From positions 1 through 36,572 of the forward strand of contig CAIWRB010000020.1 in assembly GCA_903914955.1 (NCBI GenBank): 36,572 bases of DNA, given 5' to 3'. The DNA is from an uncultured Chloroflexota bacterium. Lineage in GTDB: Bacteria > Chloroflexota > Anaerolineae > Anaerolineales > Villigracilaceae. The notes beneath the pieces were generated by a model. It was not told where the DNA came from, ran no database searches, and worked only from the letters and a program-made list of their open reading frames with translations. This document shows, in pieces, positions 9,671-34,980 of this stretch; position 1 is the first letter of the stretch, and each line of letters starts with the position of its first letter. A program made the position numbers and the translations under genes.

Positions 9671-9730
9671 CCGGTCTTTGTTTTCAGCCAGCTATTTGAT
9701 ATGAGTTATACTTTCCCAACCAAAAACCTT

Positions 9731-9758
9731 AAATTGAAAATTGCGAATCAAAATGAAA
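9731..9758 (+). repeat. Degenerate heptamer tract at the start of the two-domain dehydrogenase gene
   Basis: Four in-phase seven-base units (aaattga, aaattgc, gaatcaa, aatgaaa) run through the leader and the ATG at 9753. It belongs with the heptamer tracts seen inside this gene. Only moderate confidence that it is more than AT-rich sequence. Confidence 0.4.
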
Positions 9759-11909
9759 CAACTCCTCCAAAACATCAAAAACGGAAATACTACTGTCGAA
9801 GAAGTCCCTGTGCCAACCCCGCGAGATGGTATGGCTCTCGTTAGAACGGCGGCATCGCTTGTCTCCGCAGGCACGGAGCGGATGATCGTTGAATTCGCCG
9901 AGAAAAGTTATCTTGGCAAGGCTCGTTCACGCCCTGATCTCGTCAAACAGGTAGTCGATAAAGCCCGCCGCGAAGGGCTTGTTCCAACTTTGCAGGCGGC
10001 TTTTAATCGTCTCGACCAACCGATGACGCTTGGTTATTCATCTGCTGGCACGATCGTTGCGCTCGGGAAAAATATGCAGGGCTATAAGGTCGGGCAGCGT
10101 GTGGCATGCGCGGGCGCGGGGTATGCTGTCCATGCCGAATACAATATTGTGCCGCGCAACCTTCTTACTCCGCTTCCAAAAAATGTTGATTTTGAATCCG
10201 CCGCCTTCACCACGCTCGGCTCGATTGCTCTTCATGGATTTCGTCTGGCTGAACCTCAACTTGGGGAGAACGTCGCCATCATTGGGTTGGGTCTATTAGG
10301 ATTATTGACGATTCAGCTCGCGTCTGCGGCTGGATGCAACGTCCTCGGCATTGACCTCGACCCGCGGAGGATTCAACTCGCATCCTCTCTTGGATTTGAA
10401 GCTGTTTCCCGCCAAAATGCAGAATCAGCGTCTCAGGCATTTACTGCCAACATTGGATTCGACTCCATCATCATCTGCGCAGACACATCCTCCAATGATC
10501 CGATCGAACTCGCAGGTGCAATCGCAAGAGACCGCGCCAAGGTTGTCGCTACGGGCGCAGTTGGATTGACCATTCCACGAAAAATATATTTCGAAAAAGA
10601 AATTTCATTGGTCAACTCCCGCTCCTATGGTCCCGGCCGTTATGATGCAAGTTACGAAGAAAATGGAATCGATTATCCAATTGGCTACGTCCGCTGGACA
10701 GAGGGTAGAAATTTTCAGGCTGTGGTCGATTTGATGGCAACTGGCAAGTTAAAAGTGATGCCGCTTATTTCGCATCGTTTCCCGATCGAAAACGCGGCGA
10801 CTGCCTATGAAGTGATTACAGGAAAGAAGAAAGAAACGTTTTTGGGAGTTTTGCTTACTTATCCTGATAGCGTTGAAAAGCTGGACAGTTTGAAAGTTAT
10901 TAAGTTCAACGTTCAAACTGTCAAACGTTCCAGTATTGTGAAGCTTGGTGTTTTAGGCGCGGGTTTGTATGCCAACTCAACTTTGCTCCCCGTCATAAAA
11001 AACAATAAAGATTTTGAATTGGTAGGCATTGCTTCTTCCGGCGGATTGCATGCGCAGCACTCAGGTAAAAAATTTGGATTTCAATATGCAACATCCAGTG
11101 AAGATGAAATTATCAACGACCCAAACATCAATACCGTTGCTATTCTCACCCGACACGACTCTCATGCGGAATTGGTTGTCAAAGCCTTGCAGGCGGGCAA
11201 ACATGTCTTTGTTGAAAAGCCGCTCGCAATTAATAGGAAACAGATATCAGCCATCAGTAATCAGTTACTGAAAACTGATAACGGTTTATTGCTCACTGGT
11301 TTCAATCGCAGATTTTCTCCCCTTGCCCAACAACTTTCTACTTTCTACAAAGATCGAAATGAACCTTTGCATGCGCACTATAGAGTTAACGCTGGTTACA
11401 TTCCGCTCAATCACTGGACTCAAGACCCAATCCTCGGCGGCGGACGGATCATCGGCGAAGCCTGTCACTTTATTGATCTGATAACCTTTATCGTTGGTGA
11501 AGCGCCTATTAAAGTCAGTACTCACGCGCTGGCTGATCATGGAAAATATCGCGAGGACAATGTTTCGATGACTTTTACGTTCCCTGATGGCTCTATCGGT
11601 GTAGTGGATTATCTTGCCAACGGCGATAAATCATTCCCCAAGGAACGGCTCGAGGTGTTTTGTGCAGGGAAAATAGCGATACTCAATGATTATGTAAAAT
11701 TGGAATTCATCGAAAACGGAAAGCGGAAAACAAAAAGCGGAGTACAAAATAAAGGCTGGAGGCGCGAAATGGAAATCTTCGCCAGTGCCATTCGTGAAGG
11801 CGGTCAACCGCCGATTCCATATGAGCAATTGTTCGGTGTGACCGAGGCCACATTCGCAGCGGTCGAGTCTTTGCGGACGCAGACAGCAATAAAAATCGCG
11901 AAGGTGTAA
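9753..11909 (+). CDS. Bi-domain oxidoreductase: medium-chain dehydrogenase fused to Gfo/Idh/MocA, 718 aa
   Basis: Residues 1-375 are a zinc-type medium-chain alcohol dehydrogenase-like domain with a Rossmann motif GLGLLGLLTIQLA; residues 385-718 are a Gfo/Idh/MocA oxidoreductase with GVLGAGLYANSTLLP, the EKPLAI motif and GGRIIGEACHFIDL. Such fusions are known from polysaccharide gene clusters, where they are thought to alter sugar substrates, but no reaction is firmly assigned. ATG at 9753 is chosen (MKQLLQNIKNG is the conserved beginning) over a TTG at 9741; no clear Shine-Dalgarno is seen. The gene is unusual for containing several heptamer repeat tracts: at its start, in the interdomain linker, on a surface stretch of domain two, and near the C-terminus. 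A terminator follows. It is transcribed alone. Confidence 0.88.
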   Translation: MKQLLQNIKNGNTTVEEVPVPTPRDGMALVRTAASLVSAGTERMIVEFAEKSYLGKARSRPDLVKQVVDKARREGLVPTLQAAFNRLDQPMTLGYSSAGTIVALGKNMQGYKVGQRVACAGAGYAVHAEYNIVPRNLLTPLPKNVDFESAAFTTLGSIALHGFRLAEPQLGENVAIIGLGLLGLLTIQLASAAGCNVLGIDLDPRRIQLASSLGFEAVSRQNAESASQAFTANIGFDSIIICADTSSNDPIELAGAIARDRAKVVATGAVGLTIPRKIYFEKEISLVNSRSYGPGRYDASYEENGIDYPIGYVRWTEGRNFQAVVDLMATGKLKVMPLISHRFPIENAATAYEVITGKKKETFLGVLLTYPDSVEKLDSLKVIKFNVQTVKRSSIVKLGVLGAGLYANSTLLPVIKNNKDFELVGIASSGGLHAQHSGKKFGFQYATSSEDEIINDPNINTVAILTRHDSHAELVVKALQAGKHVFVEKPLAINRKQISAISNQLLKTDNGLLLTGFNRRFSPLAQQLSTFYKDRNEPLHAHYRVNAGYIPLNHWTQDPILGGGRIIGEACHFIDLITFIVGEAPIKVSTHALADHGKYREDNVSMTFTFPDGSIGVVDYLANGDKSFPKERLEVFCAGKIAILNDYVKLEFIENGKRKTKSGVQNKGWRREMEIFASAIREGGQPPIPYEQLFGVTEATFAAVESLRTQTAIKIAKV
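10905..10932 (+). repeat. Heptamer tract in the interdomain linker, with local inverted repeat
   Basis: Units ttcaacg, ttcaaac, tgtcaaa and cgttcca follow one another in seven-base phase. The bases just upstream (from about 10884) form a near-perfect 15-base inverted partner of part of this tract. It encodes the linker (residues about 379-393) between the two enzyme domains. The same 14-mer, ttcaacgttcaaac, recurs in the panB tail at 21333-21346. Confidence 0.6.
11241..11282 (+). repeat. Heptamer tract inside the Gfo/Idh/MocA domain
   Basis: Six consecutive seven-base units begin cagatat, cagccat, cagtaat, cagttac and end tgaaaac, tgataac. The tract stays in frame and encodes a stretch containing KQISAISNQLLK just after the EKPLAI motif, at a position where a surface helix is expected. 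Confidence 0.6.
11712..11753 (+). repeat. Heptamer tract near the 3' end of the two-domain dehydrogenase gene
   Basis: Seven-base units (gaaaacg, gaaagcg, gaaaaca, aaaagcg, gagtaca, aaataaa) run in phase. They encode a basic stretch NGKRKTKSGVQNK. The unit differs from those of the other tracts in the gene. Confidence 0.55.
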
Positions 11910-12567: not shown

Positions 12568-14034
12568 TCAACAAAACTGTTTCAGTACATTGACCGGATT
12601 CCCATCCGCGCCCCGAATGGTGATCTCCAAAGGCATTTGACCAGGCAATGAATGGGTTGCGCAACCAAAACAAGGGTCATACGCTCGGAACGCCATCTCG
12701 ACCATGTTCAGCAGACCTTCATTCACGACGCCGTTTTTGATGAGGCTCGTCGCTGCCTTGTGTGTGGACATCTGAATCGGTGCGTAGTTGTTGGTGGTGC
12801 CAACGATGAGATTCACTTTGGTTACGATGCCCCGTTCATCGGTCCAGTAATGATGTGTGAGAGTGCCGCGCGGCGCCTCGACGATTCCGATTCCTTCCGT
12901 TGGAATTTGAGTCGGTTTGGTGTGGACATTCGGCGATGTGATCTCAGGGTCAGTCGCCAATTCCACCCAGCGTTCTGCGGCGTATAGTAATTCAACCAGC
13001 CGCGCCCAATGTGTGGCAAGGCGTTGATGGACGGGTTTGCCGCCGAGCGTTGCGTAAAATCTTTCGTACTCTTCCTGCGCGTGCGGAGTGGCCATGCCGT
13101 CGGAGGCGTTCAGCCGTGAAAGCGGAGTGGCCATGTAAACGCCAGAATCTTCGCCGTCTACAAAACCTTTCCAGCCAATTTTTTTGAGATATGGGAATTT
13201 GAGATAGGTCCACGGTTCAACATGTTCGGCGATATGTTCAGTGTATTCCTTCGGCGCGTATTTGATGAACTCTTTTCCGTTCGGGTCTACCACGCGTACT
13301 TTGCCATCGTAGAAGTTGACTTTGTGATTCTCATCCACTAGACCCATGTAATAGGTGCGGTGTGTATATATATCGCCGAGGATCAGATCAACATAGGCTT
13401 TATTGCCAAGTACAATGTCATCGAAAATTTTGAGGCTGAATTGTGCGAAGTCAATCGCCCAGCGTCCCATTTCTTCGATCTCTTTGCGTTGTTCTTCGGT
13501 GATGCCCTTTGTCATGCCGCCAGGGATGGATGTGCATGGATGAACTTTGCGCCCGCCGAGCATTTCAACGACAGTGTGCCCAACTTTGCGCATTTGAATG
13601 ACCTTGCCGCCGATCTCCAACCCTACTTTATGGATCACGCCCAAAATGTTTCTTTCTGCAACGGGTGCATCGGGTCCCATCACGAAATCGGGTCCGCCCA
13701 GCGCGTAGAAGTGAGTCGTGTGATCGGTGCAATAGAACGCGGAATAAAGCAGCTCGCGCAGCATCTTTGCTGTGTGCGGCGGATCAACTTTGTAAACCAT
13801 GTCTGCTGCTTTGGATGCCGCCATGTGATGCGCCTCGGGGCATACCCCGCAAATACGATTTGTAAGAAGCGGCATTTCTTCAATGGGGCGGCCTACGCAG
13901 AATCGCTCAAAGCCGCGCAGCTCGGGAATCTGAAAATAGGAATTGGAGACATTGCCTTGATCGTCGAGAAAGATCTCGATCTTGCCGTGACCTTCGAGAC
14001 GGGTGATGGGGTCAATGGATATTCGTTGAGTCAT
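12568..14034 (-). CDS. mvhA: NiFe hydrogenase large subunit, MvhA-like (group 3c), 488 aa
   Basis: This subunit holds the NiFe(CN)2CO site that splits or makes H2. The N-terminal ligand motif RICGVC has C62 and C65, with an AHH following. The C-terminal motif DPCFGCATH has C455, C458 and H461. Twenty-seven residues follow that histidine, the tail expected to be removed by the adjacent protease. ATG at 14034 is chosen, giving MTQRISIDPITRLEGHGK with GGAG eight bases upstream; an earlier in-frame start at 14061 would overlap the previous gene. It lies 11 bases after mvhG. Partners in the operon (MvhD, HdrABC) point to the F420-nonreducing, heterodisulfide-linked group 3c rather than bidirectional HoxH. 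Confidence 0.94.
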   Translation of the reverse strand: MTQRISIDPITRLEGHGKIEIFLDDQGNVSNSYFQIPELRGFERFCVGRPIEEMPLLTNRICGVCPEAHHMAASKAADMVYKVDPPHTAKMLRELLYSAFYCTDHTTHFYALGGPDFVMGPDAPVAERNILGVIHKVGLEIGGKVIQMRKVGHTVVEMLGGRKVHPCTSIPGGMTKGITEEQRKEIEEMGRWAIDFAQFSLKIFDDIVLGNKAYVDLILGDIYTHRTYYMGLVDENHKVNFYDGKVRVVDPNGKEFIKYAPKEYTEHIAEHVEPWTYLKFPYLKKIGWKGFVDGEDSGVYMATPLSRLNASDGMATPHAQEEYERFYATLGGKPVHQRLATHWARLVELLYAAERWVELATDPEITSPNVHTKPTQIPTEGIGIVEAPRGTLTHHYWTDERGIVTKVNLIVGTTNNYAPIQMSTHKAATSLIKNGVVNEGLLNMVEMAFRAYDPCFGCATHSLPGQMPLEITIRGADGNPVNVLKQFC

Positions 14035-20391: not shown

Positions 20392-21309
20392 TTATGCATG
20401 GCCTGCTGTAGCGCGTACCAATTGCCAGCAGGCGCGATTGTAAGGCGTGGAAATTCCATGGAACTCAGCCCGCCTTGTTACCGCGCCGCAGATGGCGTCA
20501 ATTTCAGTGGGAGCGCCGCGGCGCACATCCTGGAACATCGAGGAATGATTCGTGGCGGTCTGGCGCGCCACATCTTCCGCCGCGCGGACGGGATTGCTGA
20601 ATGGCAAATTTACATTTTCAGCCATTGCAACTTCCGCTGTTTCACGCGCCAGCGACGCCATTACTTTGCGTGCGTTTGGATGTGACAGCAATTCACCGTT
20701 TGAGATCCTCAGCAAAGCAGTCAGCGGATTGATCGCGGAGTTGATGACCAGTTTGCCCCAGATGAGCGAATTGGCATCGTTCACGATGTGCAAATTAAAA
20801 TTAGAGGATCGCAGAACCGCTTCAAGCGGACCGAGCACCTGATTTCCCGCCTGTTCAATGGAGATTACCCCATCCCCGCCTGCTCGCACCAGGCCCGGGC
20901 CAAGCAGAGTCGCGCCAGTGGTGGTAATGCCGATTGCAACCCGGGCAGCCCCCAGGTCATGCGAGAGTATTTCACGGTTGCCGAGTCCATTTTGGAGAGT
21001 CAGCGCGAGTCCATCATCCGCAAGAGATTCCTTCAGCTGATTTGCCGCGCGTTCTGTCTGCCAAGACTTGACCAGCACCAGCGAAAATTTCACGCCGCTC
21101 ACTTCATGAGGATCATCTGTCGCGTGGACTTTGTATGCGCGTTCATTTCCATTTGCATCTACAATGCGTGCGCCATTTTTTTGTAAGGCATGCAATCCAT
21201 GTTTCCAAGTTCCAAGCATGGACACGGAATGACCCGCTTCGCTCAATCGCGCCGCGAACAAAGTTGCGAGTGCGCCAGTGCCAACTAGTAAGATGGAATT
21301 TTGATTCAT
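20392..21309 (-). CDS. panE: 2-dehydropantoate 2-reductase (ketopantoate reductase), 305 aa
   Basis: It reduces ketopantoate to pantoate with NADPH, the second step of pantothenate synthesis. The N-terminal Rossmann motif is LLVGTGALATLFAARL. Family residues are visible in VLVKSWQT, TLQNGLGN, the GITTTGA segment, and WGKLVINSAINPLTALL with the catalytic Lys and Asn. The C-terminal helical domain is complete with SSMFQDVRRGAPTEIDAICGAV. Its ATG overlaps the panB stop as ATGA, and the two genes encode consecutive steps. Identification is secure at family level. Confidence 0.93.
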   Translation of the reverse strand: MNQNSILLVGTGALATLFAARLSEAGHSVSMLGTWKHGLHALQKNGARIVDANGNERAYKVHATDDPHEVSGVKFSLVLVKSWQTERAANQLKESLADDGLALTLQNGLGNREILSHDLGAARVAIGITTTGATLLGPGLVRAGGDGVISIEQAGNQVLGPLEAVLRSSNFNLHIVNDANSLIWGKLVINSAINPLTALLRISNGELLSHPNARKVMASLARETAEVAMAENVNLPFSNPVRAAEDVARQTATNHSSMFQDVRRGAPTEIDAICGAVTRRAEFHGISTPYNRACWQLVRATAGHA

Positions 21310-22223
21310 AAGTCTTCCTCACGCTTCAACGCTTCAACGTTCAAACGTTCAAACTCTTCCCACTCTTCAGCGCTCATCTCAACGGTATGTTCAACAGCGG
21401 GGAAGCGTTTCGTTTCCACGTCGTCGAGATATTCAGTGAAAGCTTTGCTCATCTGTGTATGGAAATTCGCATACTGCTTGACGAATTTCGGCGTGAATCG
21501 TTCAAAGAGACCGAGCAGATCGTGTGTGACCAGCACCTGTCCGTCACAGCCCGCGCCCGCGCCAATGCCAATAGTAGGAATGGAAATTTGTTTGGAAATA
21601 TATTCGGCCAGCTGCGCTGGGACAGATTCAAGCACGATGCTGAATGCGCCAGCATCCTCAAGAATGTGCGCGTCTTCAAGCAGACGTTTTGCCGCAGAAG
21701 CAGTTTTACCCTGCGCGCGGAATCCTCCAAGTTGATGGACAGATTGCGGTGTGAGTCCCAGGTGACCCATGACGGGAATGCCCGTGCCTACGATCGCCCG
21801 GACTACATCTGCGCGTTCACGTCCGCCTTCGAGTTTGACGGCGTCCATGCCAGCTTGTTGCAGGAAGCGCCCCGCATTGCGGACAGCTTCTTCAGTTGAA
21901 ACTTGATATGACATGAATGGCATGTCGCCCACCAGCAGCGCGGACTTCGCTCCGCGTGAAACTGCGCGCGCGTGATGAAGCATTTCTTCCATGGTGACGG
22001 GCAGTGTGTTTTCGTAACCAAGAACAACCATCCCGAGAGAATCGCCGACGAGGATGGAATCAATACCCGCCTTGTCTATCGCCATTGCGGTGGGATAGTC
22101 ATAGGCTGTGAGCATGGTGATCGGTTCGCCGCGTTCATTCTTCTGACGGAACGTAAGCGTAGTCACCTTCTTGCGTTGTGACGTGCTGGGGGAAATTGTT
22201 GTGGTTGACGTGGTACCCTCCAA
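21306..22223 (-). CDS. panB: 3-methyl-2-oxobutanoate hydroxymethyltransferase, about 305 aa
   Basis: PanB makes ketopantoate from 2-oxoisovalerate and methylene-tetrahydrofolate. The barrel motifs are MLTAYDYPTA, VGDSLGMVVLGYENTLPVT, VGDMPFMSY, KLEGG, GHLGLTPQSVHQLGG and TIGIGAG...VTHDLLGLF. The C-terminus runs past the usual end with an extra acidic stretch; its last residues are encoded by an octamer repeat. The start is unclear: the frame opens at TTG 22223, no ATG lies before the conserved region, and GTG 22166 is an alternative. A strong GGAGG sits inside the reading frame just after the TTG. CATAAT at 22245-22240 could be the -10. The gene overlaps panE by four bases. Confidence 0.92.
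   Translation of the reverse strand: MEGTTSTTTISPSTSQRKKVTTLTFRQKNERGEPITMLTAYDYPTAMAIDKAGIDSILVGDSLGMVVLGYENTLPVTMEEMLHHARAVSRGAKSALLVGDMPFMSYQVSTEEAVRNAGRFLQQAGMDAVKLEGGRERADVVRAIVGTGIPVMGHLGLTPQSVHQLGGFRAQGKTASAAKRLLEDAHILEDAGAFSIVLESVPAQLAEYISKQISIPTIGIGAGAGCDGQVLVTHDLLGLFERFTPKFVKQYANFHTQMSKAFTEYLDDVETKRFPAVEHTVEMSAEEWEEFERLNVEALKREEDL
21323..21354 (-). repeat. Octamer tandem repeat encoding the PanB C-terminal tail
   Basis: Two copies of gcttcaac are followed by two copies of gttcaaac on the plus strand. The repeat lies in frame and encodes most of FERLNVEALK. It shares the 14-mer ttcaacgttcaaac with the linker tract of the two-domain dehydrogenase gene (10905-10918). Confidence 0.7.
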
Positions 22224-22476: not shown

Positions 22477-22695
22477 ATGCGTAGAATGTTAGGTTTTCTA
22501 ATCGGAATTTTTGTCGGCGCTTTGGTGGGGTCAACAGTGGCATTGCTCATGGCGCCTGAGTCAGGCGAGAAACTTCGCAGCGAGTTGCGCGATCGTGGCC
22601 AGGGCTTTATGCACGATGTTCAGCACGCGGCAGATTCGCGCAAGATCGAATTGCGCGGGCGGTTGGATTCTTTGCGGGCGCCGAGGGATTTTTAA
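22477..22695 (+). CDS. YtxH-domain small membrane protein, 72 aa
   Basis: One N-terminal hydrophobic helix (residues about 4-26, glycine-rich FLIGIFVGALVGSTVALLMAP) is followed by the APESGEKLRSEL motif typical of YtxH-like proteins and a charged amphipathic tail. These proteins are stress-linked in Bacillus but of unknown function. GGAG nine bases upstream supports the start. Its TAA overlaps the stop of the convergent glycosyltransferase gene within a ttaa palindrome. Confidence 0.8.
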   Translation: MRRMLGFLIGIFVGALVGSTVALLMAPESGEKLRSELRDRGQGFMHDVQHAADSRKIELRGRLDSLRAPRDF

Positions 22696-23855
22696 TATGT
22701 AATTGGTAAATTACCAATTACGGTTTTGTATAGCTCTTCCACTTTTTTCATATTCATTCCATATTCCGCGCGAGTGGAAATCATATTTGCATTGAGACCT
22801 GCGGCTTCATTTCGCAGGTCTTCTCTTTGTATGGCTAGCAGGATCCCATCAGCGATGGATTGTGGATCGTTGGGATTCACGAGCAGTCCGTTGCGCCCGT
22901 GTGTGATCCACTCGCGGATGGATTCGAGGTCCCCCGCCACAGGGAAACATCCGCAGGCGATGCCTTCGAGTAGGGAATTCGGCGTGCCATCGTGAATGGC
23001 GGGCGAGACCACAATTTGTGCGCTGCGAAACGTCTCAGCCATTTGCGTGTGTGAAAGTTGTGGATTCAATTGAACGGCGTGTTCGATATTTAATTCCTTC
23101 ATCCACTGCAAGGCCTGAGATTTTCCAGCCATTGAGGAAAAAATAAATTTTGCGTCTGCCCGTTTTTCAAGTACAAGCGGAATGGCCTTGAAGTAAGTTT
23201 CATTATTAACATAAGCGCGGAATCCGCGCGGATTAATGATGATCGGATCTTTCACTGGAATCTGCGGCGGATAAAATATATCACTTCGGATTCCGCCGTT
23301 GCCGGGTGTGACCAAAGTGGGTTTCTCCACTCTGAGTCCCCATTCGTGCGCGAGGCGGATGTCACGTTCGCAATCGGCGTGAAGCGCGTGAGTCATTTTC
23401 ATTGCTTTGCGTGTATGGTATCTCATCAATGGTGTGGATAGCGCGTGCAGGGTAAAGTCATTGCCCCAAATGGAAATGAGCAATGGAGTACCTGTGTAAG
23501 CCTGCGCTGCCAGCATGCCTTCATACGGGACTCTTAGCGCATGCACAAGATCAGGGTTAACCTCTTTGATGAAGGCGCGTAATCTTTGCGCGGAGCGGGA
23601 AATGGTCAACGGGCCGAACCACTGTCTGATAAGTGTACGCAGTCCCGAGGTCCGCCCTGAAGCACTGCCGGGTTGTGAAGTCTGCTTTTTAACTGCGCTA
23701 AAAGCTACGGGTGTAATTTCCATCCGCTTATGTGGGAAATCCACATCACAGGCGAAAGTGGATGCGAGATAGATTTCGTCGCCGCGTTCTGCGAAATGGC
23801 GGATCCAGTTTTGGGCGATCGGGGAGCGGCCATCGGCCACAAAGAGAAGTTTCAT
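22692..23855 (-). CDS. GT4-type glycosyltransferase, 387 aa
   Basis: This is a GT-B fold enzyme that probably transfers a sugar from a nucleotide donor to a surface glycan or lipid. The N-terminal half begins LLFVADGRSPIAQNWIRHFAERG. The C-terminal donor domain shows VSPAIHDGTPNSLLEGIACGCFPVAGDLESIREWITHGRNGLLV, including the E-x7-E-like signature. There is no signal peptide or membrane helix. The start lies six bases after a perfect TATAAT on the minus strand, and no Shine-Dalgarno is present, so the mRNA is probably leaderless. It diverges from the response regulator gene across only 54 bases. The sugar substrate cannot be inferred. Confidence 0.85.
   Translation of the reverse strand: MKLLFVADGRSPIAQNWIRHFAERGDEIYLASTFACDVDFPHKRMEITPVAFSAVKKQTSQPGSASGRTSGLRTLIRQWFGPLTISRSAQRLRAFIKEVNPDLVHALRVPYEGMLAAQAYTGTPLLISIWGNDFTLHALSTPLMRYHTRKAMKMTHALHADCERDIRLAHEWGLRVEKPTLVTPGNGGIRSDIFYPPQIPVKDPIIINPRGFRAYVNNETYFKAIPLVLEKRADAKFIFSSMAGKSQALQWMKELNIEHAVQLNPQLSHTQMAETFRSAQIVVSPAIHDGTPNSLLEGIACGCFPVAGDLESIREWITHGRNGLLVNPNDPQSIADGILLAIQREDLRNEAAGLNANMISTRAEYGMNMKKVEELYKTVIGNLPITY
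22699..22721. repeat. Perfect 11+11 palindrome at the convergent gene ends
   Basis: The bases gtaattggtaa and ttaccaattac flank one central A. The palindrome overlaps the 3' end of the glycosyltransferase gene and follows the YtxH stop. It also reads as three seven-base units of the type seen elsewhere (taattgg, taaatta, ccaatta). It may act as a weak terminator for YtxH. Confidence 0.5.
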
Positions 23856-34890: not shown

Positions 34891-34924
34891 GGGGTAGTTC
34901 CTCCGTTGGGGAAAATAGATGATA

Positions 34925-34980
34925 GACCATTGACCGTTGACCACAGACCATACTTTACAGTCCATCGTCCACTGTTCTAC
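34925..34980 (-). repeat. Degenerate heptamer tract in the clpC leader
   Basis: On the plus strand, seven-base units run in phase: gaccatt, gaccgtt, gaccaca, gaccata, then further decayed units such as gtccatc and gtccact. The consensus is roughly G(A/T)CCA(T/C)(T/A). It sits between clpC and the divergent acetyltransferase promoter. Confidence 0.65.

Follow-up and report, generated by a model that had tools for sequence, protein, structure and literature searches.

Seven-base repeat arrays at tolerant sites of a conserved dehydrogenase gene point to an unusual mutational process that rewrites short coding stretches

Introduction

How does a conserved enzyme gene come to carry seven-base tandem repeats inside its reading frame? 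The question is raised by a fused zinc-type alcohol dehydrogenase/GFO-IDH-MocA oxidoreductase gene on a 36,572-nucleotide stretch of DNA, here termed the window, which spans positions 1 to 36,572 of contig CAIWRB010000020.1 (assembly GCA_903914955.1) from an uncultured bacterium of the Anaerolineales, phylum Chloroflexota. A first-pass annotation of the sequence had noted four heptamer tracts in this gene, each with a different unit, and had proposed a repeated creation or insertion of repeats comparable to the short tandemly repeated repetitive (STRR) sequences of cyanobacteria. Homologous genes display an excess of period-7 and period-8 DNA over synonymous shuffles at fixed sites, two of these sites carry inverted arms, and arrays of the same kind are present in intergenic DNA. 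By alignment, the repeat unit has changed completely between some sister species. Such findings at tolerant spots of a conserved enzyme gene, in mostly uncultured bacteria, suggest that an unusual form of mutation overwrites short coding stretches.

The host genome of the window comprises 4.40 Mb in 470 contigs. The first half of the fused gene carries the Pfam domains ADH_N and ADH_zinc_N, and the second half GFO_IDH_MocA and C-terminal domains. The list of open reading frames (ORFs) opens the gene at TTG 9741; the conserved start is ATG 9753: of 67 aligned rows, 66 begin with MKQ and the other is truncated. According to record titles, the homologues are mostly from Anaerolineales/Chloroflexi metagenome-assembled genomes.

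Repeat tracts in the window gene

Periodicity was scored at a fixed lag, with +1 for each match and −1 for each mismatch. The null for individual tracts consists of 2000 synonymous-codon shuffles of the window gene, which keep protein and codon use; thresholds, site limits and the unit classes used below were set post hoc, with the data already in view. Over the whole window, eight segments score at least 9 at lag 7, compared with 0.75 in first-order Markov shuffles. At the same score there are none at lags 5, 10 and 11, one at lag 4 and two at lag 8; the codon-related lags 6, 9 and 12 give four, three and two. The gene itself has three period-7 segments at this level against 0.30 expected, a count reached in none of 500 synonymous shuffles.

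Of the four tracts first noted, only one is solid. Another is genuine, although palindromic and in octamer phase; of the other two, one is weak and one is due to chance. The solid tract (11241–11282, site T3) follows the EKPLAI motif; its score of 12 is reached by 0 of 2000 shuffles, and it is also a hairpin with arms at 11238–11260 and 11265–11287. The tract in the interdomain linker (10905–10932) has 13 of 20 matches at lag 8 (P 0.037) and 11 of 21 at lag 7 (P 0.05), and represents the right arm of an inverted repeat, 10874–10898/10908–10932 (site T2). The tract near the end of the gene (11712–11753, site T4) scores 10 with a P of only 0.16, because Lys and Gly codons readily yield such a score. 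The tract at the start (9731–9758) is mostly 5′ leader, since the conserved start lies at 9753; tested on 9741–9768 it scores 2 (P 0.83) and is rejected as a repeat. A leader segment at 9718–9748 scores 8, a level found 11 times in the window against 2.25 expected in Markov shuffles, and is indistinguishable from chance. That all four tracts stay in frame is true, but trivially so for any open reading frame. Two sites that the annotation lacked, T5 and T2b, are listed with the others in Table 1.

Table 1. The fused dehydrogenase gene and its repeat sites in the window
Feature	Coordinates	Strand	Remarks
Fused zinc-type alcohol dehydrogenase/GFO-IDH-MocA oxidoreductase gene	9753..11909	+	718 aa, ATG 9753
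Site T2b, weak heptamer segment TGGCAACTGGCAAGTTAAAAGT	10735..10756	+	P 0.045, marginal; absent from the first-pass annotation
Linker site T2, inverted repeat in octamer phase between the two domains	10874..10932	+	inverted-repeat score 15
Site T3, after EKPLAI, CAGTNNN array then ACTGNNN array	11232..11287	+	score 12, inverted-repeat score 13
Site T5, ACTTTCTACTTTCTAC	11333..11348	+	P 0.0035; absent from the tracts of the first-pass annotation
Site T4, GAAAACGGAAAGCGGAAAACAAAAA	11712..11736	+	weak, may reflect Lys/Gly codons alone

Periodicity at fixed sites in homologues

The homologue set comprises 71 loci. Five were dropped, namely the short rows L063, L068 and L070 and the distant matches L072 and L073, and the 66 loci with a near-full-length frame were aligned with the window gene to give 67 rows. 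Shuffle counts exclude the window gene and the outgroup L071; they cover the remaining 65 homologues, with 10 synonymous shuffles. Period-7 segments scoring at least 12 number 118 in these homologues, compared with a mean of 3.6 and a maximum of 6 in the shuffles. Period 8 gives 9 segments compared with 2.0, period 5 gives one, and periods 10 and 11 give none; 44 segments at lag 14 are taken as harmonics. Lags divisible by 3 are omitted from these counts and from those for locus flanks and genome G001 below; they are also common in coding DNA, the host-genome sample having six segments at lag 6, four at lag 9 and five at lag 12 (score at least 12). A protein heptad was considered as the source of the DNA period and rejected, as the signal is gone in synonymous shuffles.

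A positional scan (90-nt window, 8 synonymous shuffles per gene) places the lag-7 excess in five regions of the gene, the peaks being broadened because of the 90-nt window. The excess is +2.8 to 3.5 at about 10701–10790, +3.9 to 6.6 at about 10851–10970, +4.7 to 7.6 at about 11211–11290, +4.0 to 5.1 at about 11301–11390 and +1.0 to 2.1 at about 11691–11780. Three bins of the second region also have a lag-8 excess of +2.1 to 2.9. At lags 5, 10 and 11 no bin holding more than one window reaches an excess of 0.8. Counted by site in 66 rows (the 65 homologues and the window gene), a score of at least 12 at lag 7 or 8 is found in 41 rows at T2, 35 at T3, 23 at T5, 12 at T2b and 6 at T4.

At T2 and T3 homologues have heptamers (in some cases octamers) in tandem, and an array of the reverse-complement unit often comes next; the unit varies by species. 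Examples at the other sites are CAAGTTACAAGTTACAAGTTACAAGTT at T2b in L019 and AATCGTCAATCGTCAATCGTCAATCGTCAAT at T5 in L064. Thus, repeated creation of STRR-like heptamers, as first proposed, is supported for the linker, T3 and T5, where different units occupy the same places beyond the synonymous null, and falls away for the tract at the start of the gene. The idea of insertion finds a more limited place. Some species have about 13 extra residues beside T3, and the linker of a second enzyme described below has been extended, but at T3, T5 and T2b the alignment displays mostly length-preserving replacements. Tract 3 as an insertion is rejected, its length being within 1–2 residues of array-free homologues.

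An exceptionally long octamer array (AACCGNNN type, score 111) is present in the interdomain linker of L053 and encodes a QPENRTTAQP-like repeat.

Inverted arms and the protein model

The inverted-repeat excess in homologues is +2.0 at T2 and +2.6 at T3 and is at most 0.81 elsewhere along the gene; T5, T2b and T4 have none. This palindromic layout, an array followed by its reverse-complement array at two sites, and the turnover of units go beyond what was first claimed for the gene.

An AlphaFold2 model built from 25 sequences is of moderate quality (mean predicted local distance difference test score, pLDDT, 74; predicted template modelling score, pTM, 0.47). In the model T2 falls within a stretch between the two domains, residues 373–393, with pLDDT below 50. 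T3 corresponds to helix 495–507 and the following loop, T5 to helix 523–531 and the following loop, T2b to the end of helix 317–329 and the following loop, and T4 to a beta hairpin. A placement of all tracts at linker or surface positions, as originally suggested, fits the second tract, which lies in the linker (residues 371–396), while the third is a regular helix and loop.

Turnover of the repeat unit

T3 units were assigned to classes by a labelling rule of our own, which gives CAGT in 23 rows, ATTAC in 7, GACC in 6 and TAGC in 3, or 39 of 67 rows labelled and 28 unlabelled. On a tree of 585 columns from which tract columns were removed (a quick search, in which 17 of 64 inner branches have support below 80), the four classes need at least 14 changes.

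Sixteen non-overlapping close pairs, no more than 0.5 apart on the tree, were compared. Over the rest of the gene their nucleotide identity averages 0.853, versus 0.536 at T2, 0.633 at T3 and 0.620 at T5; at T2b and T4 it is 0.792 and 0.768. In the sister pair L040/L042, identity is 0.91 in the rest of the gene versus 0.36 at T2, 0.49 at T3 and 0.51 at T5. At T2 and T3 each member has an array, built of a different unit; at T5 only L040 has one. L010 and L015 are 0.49 identical at T5, where both have 39 nt: the array of L015 is of AATCTCA type (score 21), that of L010 of CTCTTTC type and weaker (score 8). As these sites are variable even without arrays, low identity alone is no proof of array turnover.

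Arrays outside the gene and in other genomes

Across 65 loci, the density of lag-7 segments scoring at least 12 is 838/Mb in the gene (119 segments); in the flanks it is 40/Mb for coding DNA (12) and 512/Mb for non-coding DNA (20). The gene is thus about 20 times denser in arrays than the coding DNA around it, a ranking as an unusually hot gene that is partly affected by its having been chosen after the annotation drew attention to it; the homologue statistics are unaffected. Genome-scale counts are from samples of genomes, and the division into coding and non-coding DNA follows greedy ORFs, so that some arrays counted as coding may be intergenic. On this basis, 334,021 bases of the host genome, window included, have four non-coding and five coding lag-7 arrays (score at least 12), and 400,000 bases of genome G001 have 22 non-coding (481/Mb) and 15 coding (42/Mb) period-7 arrays and none at lags 4, 5, 10 and 11. 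In 150 kb of Escherichia coli K-12 there are no arrays at lag 7 and one at lag 8.

A strong inverted partner (score at least 12) accompanies 17 of 62 arrays outside the gene, compared with 10 of 300 random windows; a strong mirror partner accompanies none of the 62. Fifteen of 30 further loci, some of which may repeat species of the first homologue set, were scanned whole. In L179–L187 each stretch has at least one lag-7 array scoring at least 12, not always inside the gene.

Eight ORFs that hold nine of the 15 coding arrays of G001 were compared with Pfam. Two have arrays in clear interdomain gaps, one array lies just past a domain, two are near an N-terminus that is possibly over-extended, and three are within or beside a domain match.

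Paralogues of the dehydrogenase also carry repeats. L210, from another genome and 45% identical to the window protein, has an array at 1137–1187 (score 22) at about the linker position. L209, from the host genome itself and 42% identical, has a short segment at 1520–1535 (score 9) at about the T3 position.

A second enzyme

A xanthine-dehydrogenase-type protein of G001 has an array at residues 592–615, at the gap between molybdopterin-binding domain matches 293–539 and 614–868. A match to this protein is found in 77 of 81 genomes of the order, and the comparison comprises 31 rows, G001 and the best 30 of the 77 matching genomes' loci. The linker scores at least 12 at lag 7 in seven rows: G001, five of eight loci from the own genus or family, and L149. 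By eye, an array in the linker of L141 has a 15-nt period (7 + 8). In the other 21 rows, which represent other families, the linker is short and mostly reads V-x-G-K-P; for array-free relatives in general the usual form is V-x-G-[K/R]-P. Over the whole gene there are ten lag-7 segments scoring at least 12 in 86,397 nt (116/Mb), six of them around the linker. The comparison with array-free relatives shows arrays gained in the linker of this second enzyme.

Also by eye, the V-x-G-[K/R] stretch forms one copy of the array in three unit types, that of L139, that of L149 and the one common to L137, L138, L140 and G001. The linker arrays thus have apparently grown from resident codons, and the fact that V-x-G-[K/R] is itself one copy is the best hint of such an origin.

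The other four segments of this gene lie near residues 80–119, between the Fer2_2 and hammerhead domain matches, which is a second interdomain gap.

Origin of the arrays

On balance, it is probable that a mutational process builds and rewrites STRR-like heptamer, sometimes octamer, arrays, partly palindromic, wherever selection permits. The arrays in the gene would be the coding representatives of a degenerate class that is scattered through these genomes and common in them. The sites look more like a mutational attractor with selection as a filter than like a conserved element, because period, site and in part symmetry recur while the sequence turns over, and because the same arrays are found in non-coding DNA. 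Slippage in steps of 7 or 8 nt would create direct arrays, and fold-back template switching could copy an array as its reverse complement, with inverted arms and multi-base changes as the outcome. The process would be linked to replication and would act between genes and, in this gene, at the interdomain linker and helix-loop segments; purifying selection would preserve the reading frame, the hydrophobic pattern and, for the most part, the length, as the process keeps altering the unit. Template-switch mutation, or quasipalindrome correction, produces reverse-complement copies and multi-base changes, also in yeast coding DNA (PMC8794818, PMC8604942). The layout of the arrays would fit such a footprint, which makes template switching a candidate mechanism; the abstracts of these reports describe neither a seven-base periodicity nor order-wide hot sites. 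With respect to the choice of seven, Mrazek et al. suggested that seven bases might be a polymerase-interacting length (cited in PMC4679880). We infer a replication mechanism, a local growth of arrays rather than copying from elsewhere, and no selected function.

Several observations weigh against this explanation. The approximately 20-fold density of the gene is accounted for by a presumed tolerance alone. L188–L193 have no lag-7 array scoring at least 12, although L188 is from the same genus (in a 5.1-kb stretch), and L055 has no array at T3 though its genome is rich in CAGTTAT-type matches. Array-free pairs are equally divergent at T5, with identities of 0.54 for L032/L033 (scores 2 and 4) and 0.46 for L034/L043 (scores 3 and 4), and the most similar pair, the window gene and L003, differs at T3 by point changes only. 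Local growth is supported by one second gene only, in which L136 and L141 have arrays without the resident V-x-G-[K/R] stretch inside them. The folding data given below are a further difficulty.

Arrays might instead be copied in from elsewhere, by ectopic conversion or as a mobile heptamer element, with replacement of the resident unit. This is possible but rather unlikely. Several genomes contain scattered arrays of the same heptamer classes, blocks change as a whole between close relatives, and the host genome has 12 matches to Y1-type transposases (Y1_Tnp), candidates for a link to repetitive extragenic palindromic (REP) sequences and their associated tyrosine transposases (RAYT). In L064, the 31-nt T5 array recurs elsewhere in the genome, once as an exact copy of 31 nt and once as an exact one of 30 nt, and T3 has many partial matches. 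However, perfect tandem arrays match one another trivially, and the comparison covers the arrays themselves. No element boundary was found. A canonical unit is shared with the 62 outside arrays in only 34 of 119 in-gene arrays (a small sample), and T3 of G004 is of the CAGTTAT class though G004 has only two CAGTTAT-type matches. The resident codons contained in xanthine-dehydrogenase-type arrays of three unit types also argue against copying.

A selected function is less probable still. It would have a hairpin or repeat maintained for translation pausing at the domain boundary, mRNA stability or protein binding, with units that co-evolve. The inverted arms survive a complete sequence change in examples at T2 and T3, the largest folding-energy excess of the gene is at T3 (−4.5 kcal/mol), and hairpins of cyanobacterial STRR sequences have been proposed to stabilise transcripts (PMC2670836). 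Against this, inverted partners are also found on arrays outside the gene and, as noted, the stretches L188–L193 lack arrays at the threshold. A selected hairpin is made less likely by the lack of inverted-repeat excess at three of the five sites (T5, T2b and T4) and by the many homologues without arrays: at T3, scores stay below 10 in 22 of 66 rows, and 28 of 67 received no class. The folding-energy excess is −2.8 to −3.2 kcal/mol at array-free places as well and just −1.5 at T2, and a general RNA-structure element is rejected on these values, which also sit poorly with the mutational explanation.

Chance or amino-acid constraint, whereby helical heptads and loops rich in Lys, Ser and Gln mimic period 7, is very improbable as an account of the arrays. 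A seven-residue helix repeat corresponds to 21 nt, which is commensurate with 7, and chance does hold for the first tract and possibly for the fourth; the refuting case named in the annotation, identical residues in non-periodic DNA, applies to the first and may apply to the fourth. For T2, T3 and T5 it is refuted across homologues: shuffles that keep protein and codon use have 3.6 segments against the 118 found, and arrays of the same type are intergenic.

A bolder form of the mutational explanation seems improbable, though with larger consequences. A dedicated or strongly biased DNA-synthesis activity might write heptamer and octamer arrays and their fold-back complements into chromosomes, continually overwriting tolerant spots of enzymes. 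If true, new seven-base words would keep diversifying segments of proteins, mostly without a change of length.

Relation to known bacterial repeats

Cyanobacterial STRR sequences are usually 7-bp degenerate tandem units capable of forming hairpins (PMC2670836). The present arrays likewise consist of tandem degenerate units of about 7 bp (period 7, also 8 and 14, with periods 4, 5, 10 and 11 absent or at no more than 1–2), they are dispersed and mainly non-coding, at the densities given above for G001 and the locus flanks, and a fraction (the 17 of 62 with inverted partners, with none in the mirror control) are hairpin-forming. The STRR sequences described are in a promoter region and between genes (PMC2670836), whereas here arrays occupy fixed sites in a conserved enzyme gene and the unit differs between sister species. 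Because the host is of another phylum, an Anaerolineales bacterium, and the arrays are inside an enzyme gene, they can be said to work like STRR sequences but are not classed with them.

TAACTGA heptamers are found in Beggiatoaceae, cyanobacteria and Bacteroidetes (MacGregor, 2015, PMC4679880). The T3 unit CAGTTAT is of the same heptamer class (reverse complement, rotated), and the peptide QLSVISKQ of several homologues resembles the reported LSVISYQ repeat. TAACTGA repeats are mostly intergenic, direct and of one unit, and the main genome has a single indirect repeat; those within genes are mostly at protein ends, and Chloroflexota are outside the reported distribution (PMC4679880). Instead of a fixed, direct heptamer mostly upstream of start codons, the 119 in-gene arrays here have 65 canonical units, and inverted arms are present.

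The GGGNATC G-quadruplex heptamers of Xanthomonas and Nostoc are likewise dispersed and over-represented in non-coding DNA; they are of one G-rich unit type and under-represented in coding DNA, in contrast to the many, partly palindromic units that recur here in the coding DNA of certain genes (PMC4692102). A survey of prokaryotic satellites traces some abundant bacterial families to heptamer and hexamer repeats and counts Chloroflexus aurantiacus among the satellite-rich genomes; its relevant passages do not mention Anaerolineae, inverted arms or unit turnover within a gene (PMC6749651). Inverted repeats are kept in functional coding genes in the mitochondria of Nematomorpha, as here, but those are long perfect palindromes of up to 284 bp rather than heptamer arrays with unit turnover (PMC6649704).

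The arrays do not resemble insertion-type palindromic elements or miniature inverted-repeat transposable elements (MITEs): no conserved sequence is found across homologues and the tracts are mostly length-preserving; target duplications were not looked for. Rickettsia palindromic elements are palindromic DNA inserted in frame in many genes and belong to a defined sequence family. The present arrays have no fixed sequence and share only period and symmetry. Among the titles and abstracts listed in a literature search, none deals with arrays of this kind in Anaerolineae or in this enzyme. Heptamer STRR-like repeats are already known; the present case differs in host phylum, unit diversity, symmetry and recurrent placement at fixed sites of a conserved enzyme, and the recurrent rewriting of conserved coding sequence would be new.

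Significance

Bacterial seven-base repeats, such as cyanobacterial STRR, TAACTGA and GGGNATC, have long been noted, and their origin and role are poorly understood. The same sites of one enzyme offer some sixty parallel natural experiments in which the period, and at two sites palindromic symmetry, recurs while the sequence is replaced; the mutational mechanism is therefore testable by comparative genomics. The data suggest that, in one enzyme, the process can replace coding blocks of about 40–75 nt from one sister species to the next with the frame intact. Amino-acid changes clustered by such rewriting could be misread by standard substitution models as positive selection.

Additional arrays and features

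The strongest lag-7 segment of the window, a GACCATT-type heptamer array (34915–34950, score 15), is about 32–44 codons into an 875-aa minus-strand ORF, whose start may be over-extended. A palindromic heptamer array (GTAATTGG..CCAATTAC type) at 22688–22721 overlaps the 3′ end of the minus-strand ORF 22692–23855 and shares its class with the in-gene arrays of L025, L065 and L042. Octamer arrays (ACGCTTCA, AACGTTCA) are found at 21321–21354, near the 3′ end of the minus-strand ORF 21306–22223, with the next ORF close. An Rfam scan of the window gives a single small-RNA-type match, DUF3800-IX RNA (RF02968) at 1684–1767 (39.8 bits, gathering score 36.8), far from the dehydrogenase gene. Elsewhere in the host genome, L090 has a heptamer palindrome, TTGAAGGTTGAAAGTTTTAACTTTCAACCTTCAA, at 13061–13094 in DNA called non-coding. 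In L125 (8913–11600), a transaldolase is fused to a phosphoglucose-isomerase-like domain, and a CCAATTA heptamer array is present near residue 694.

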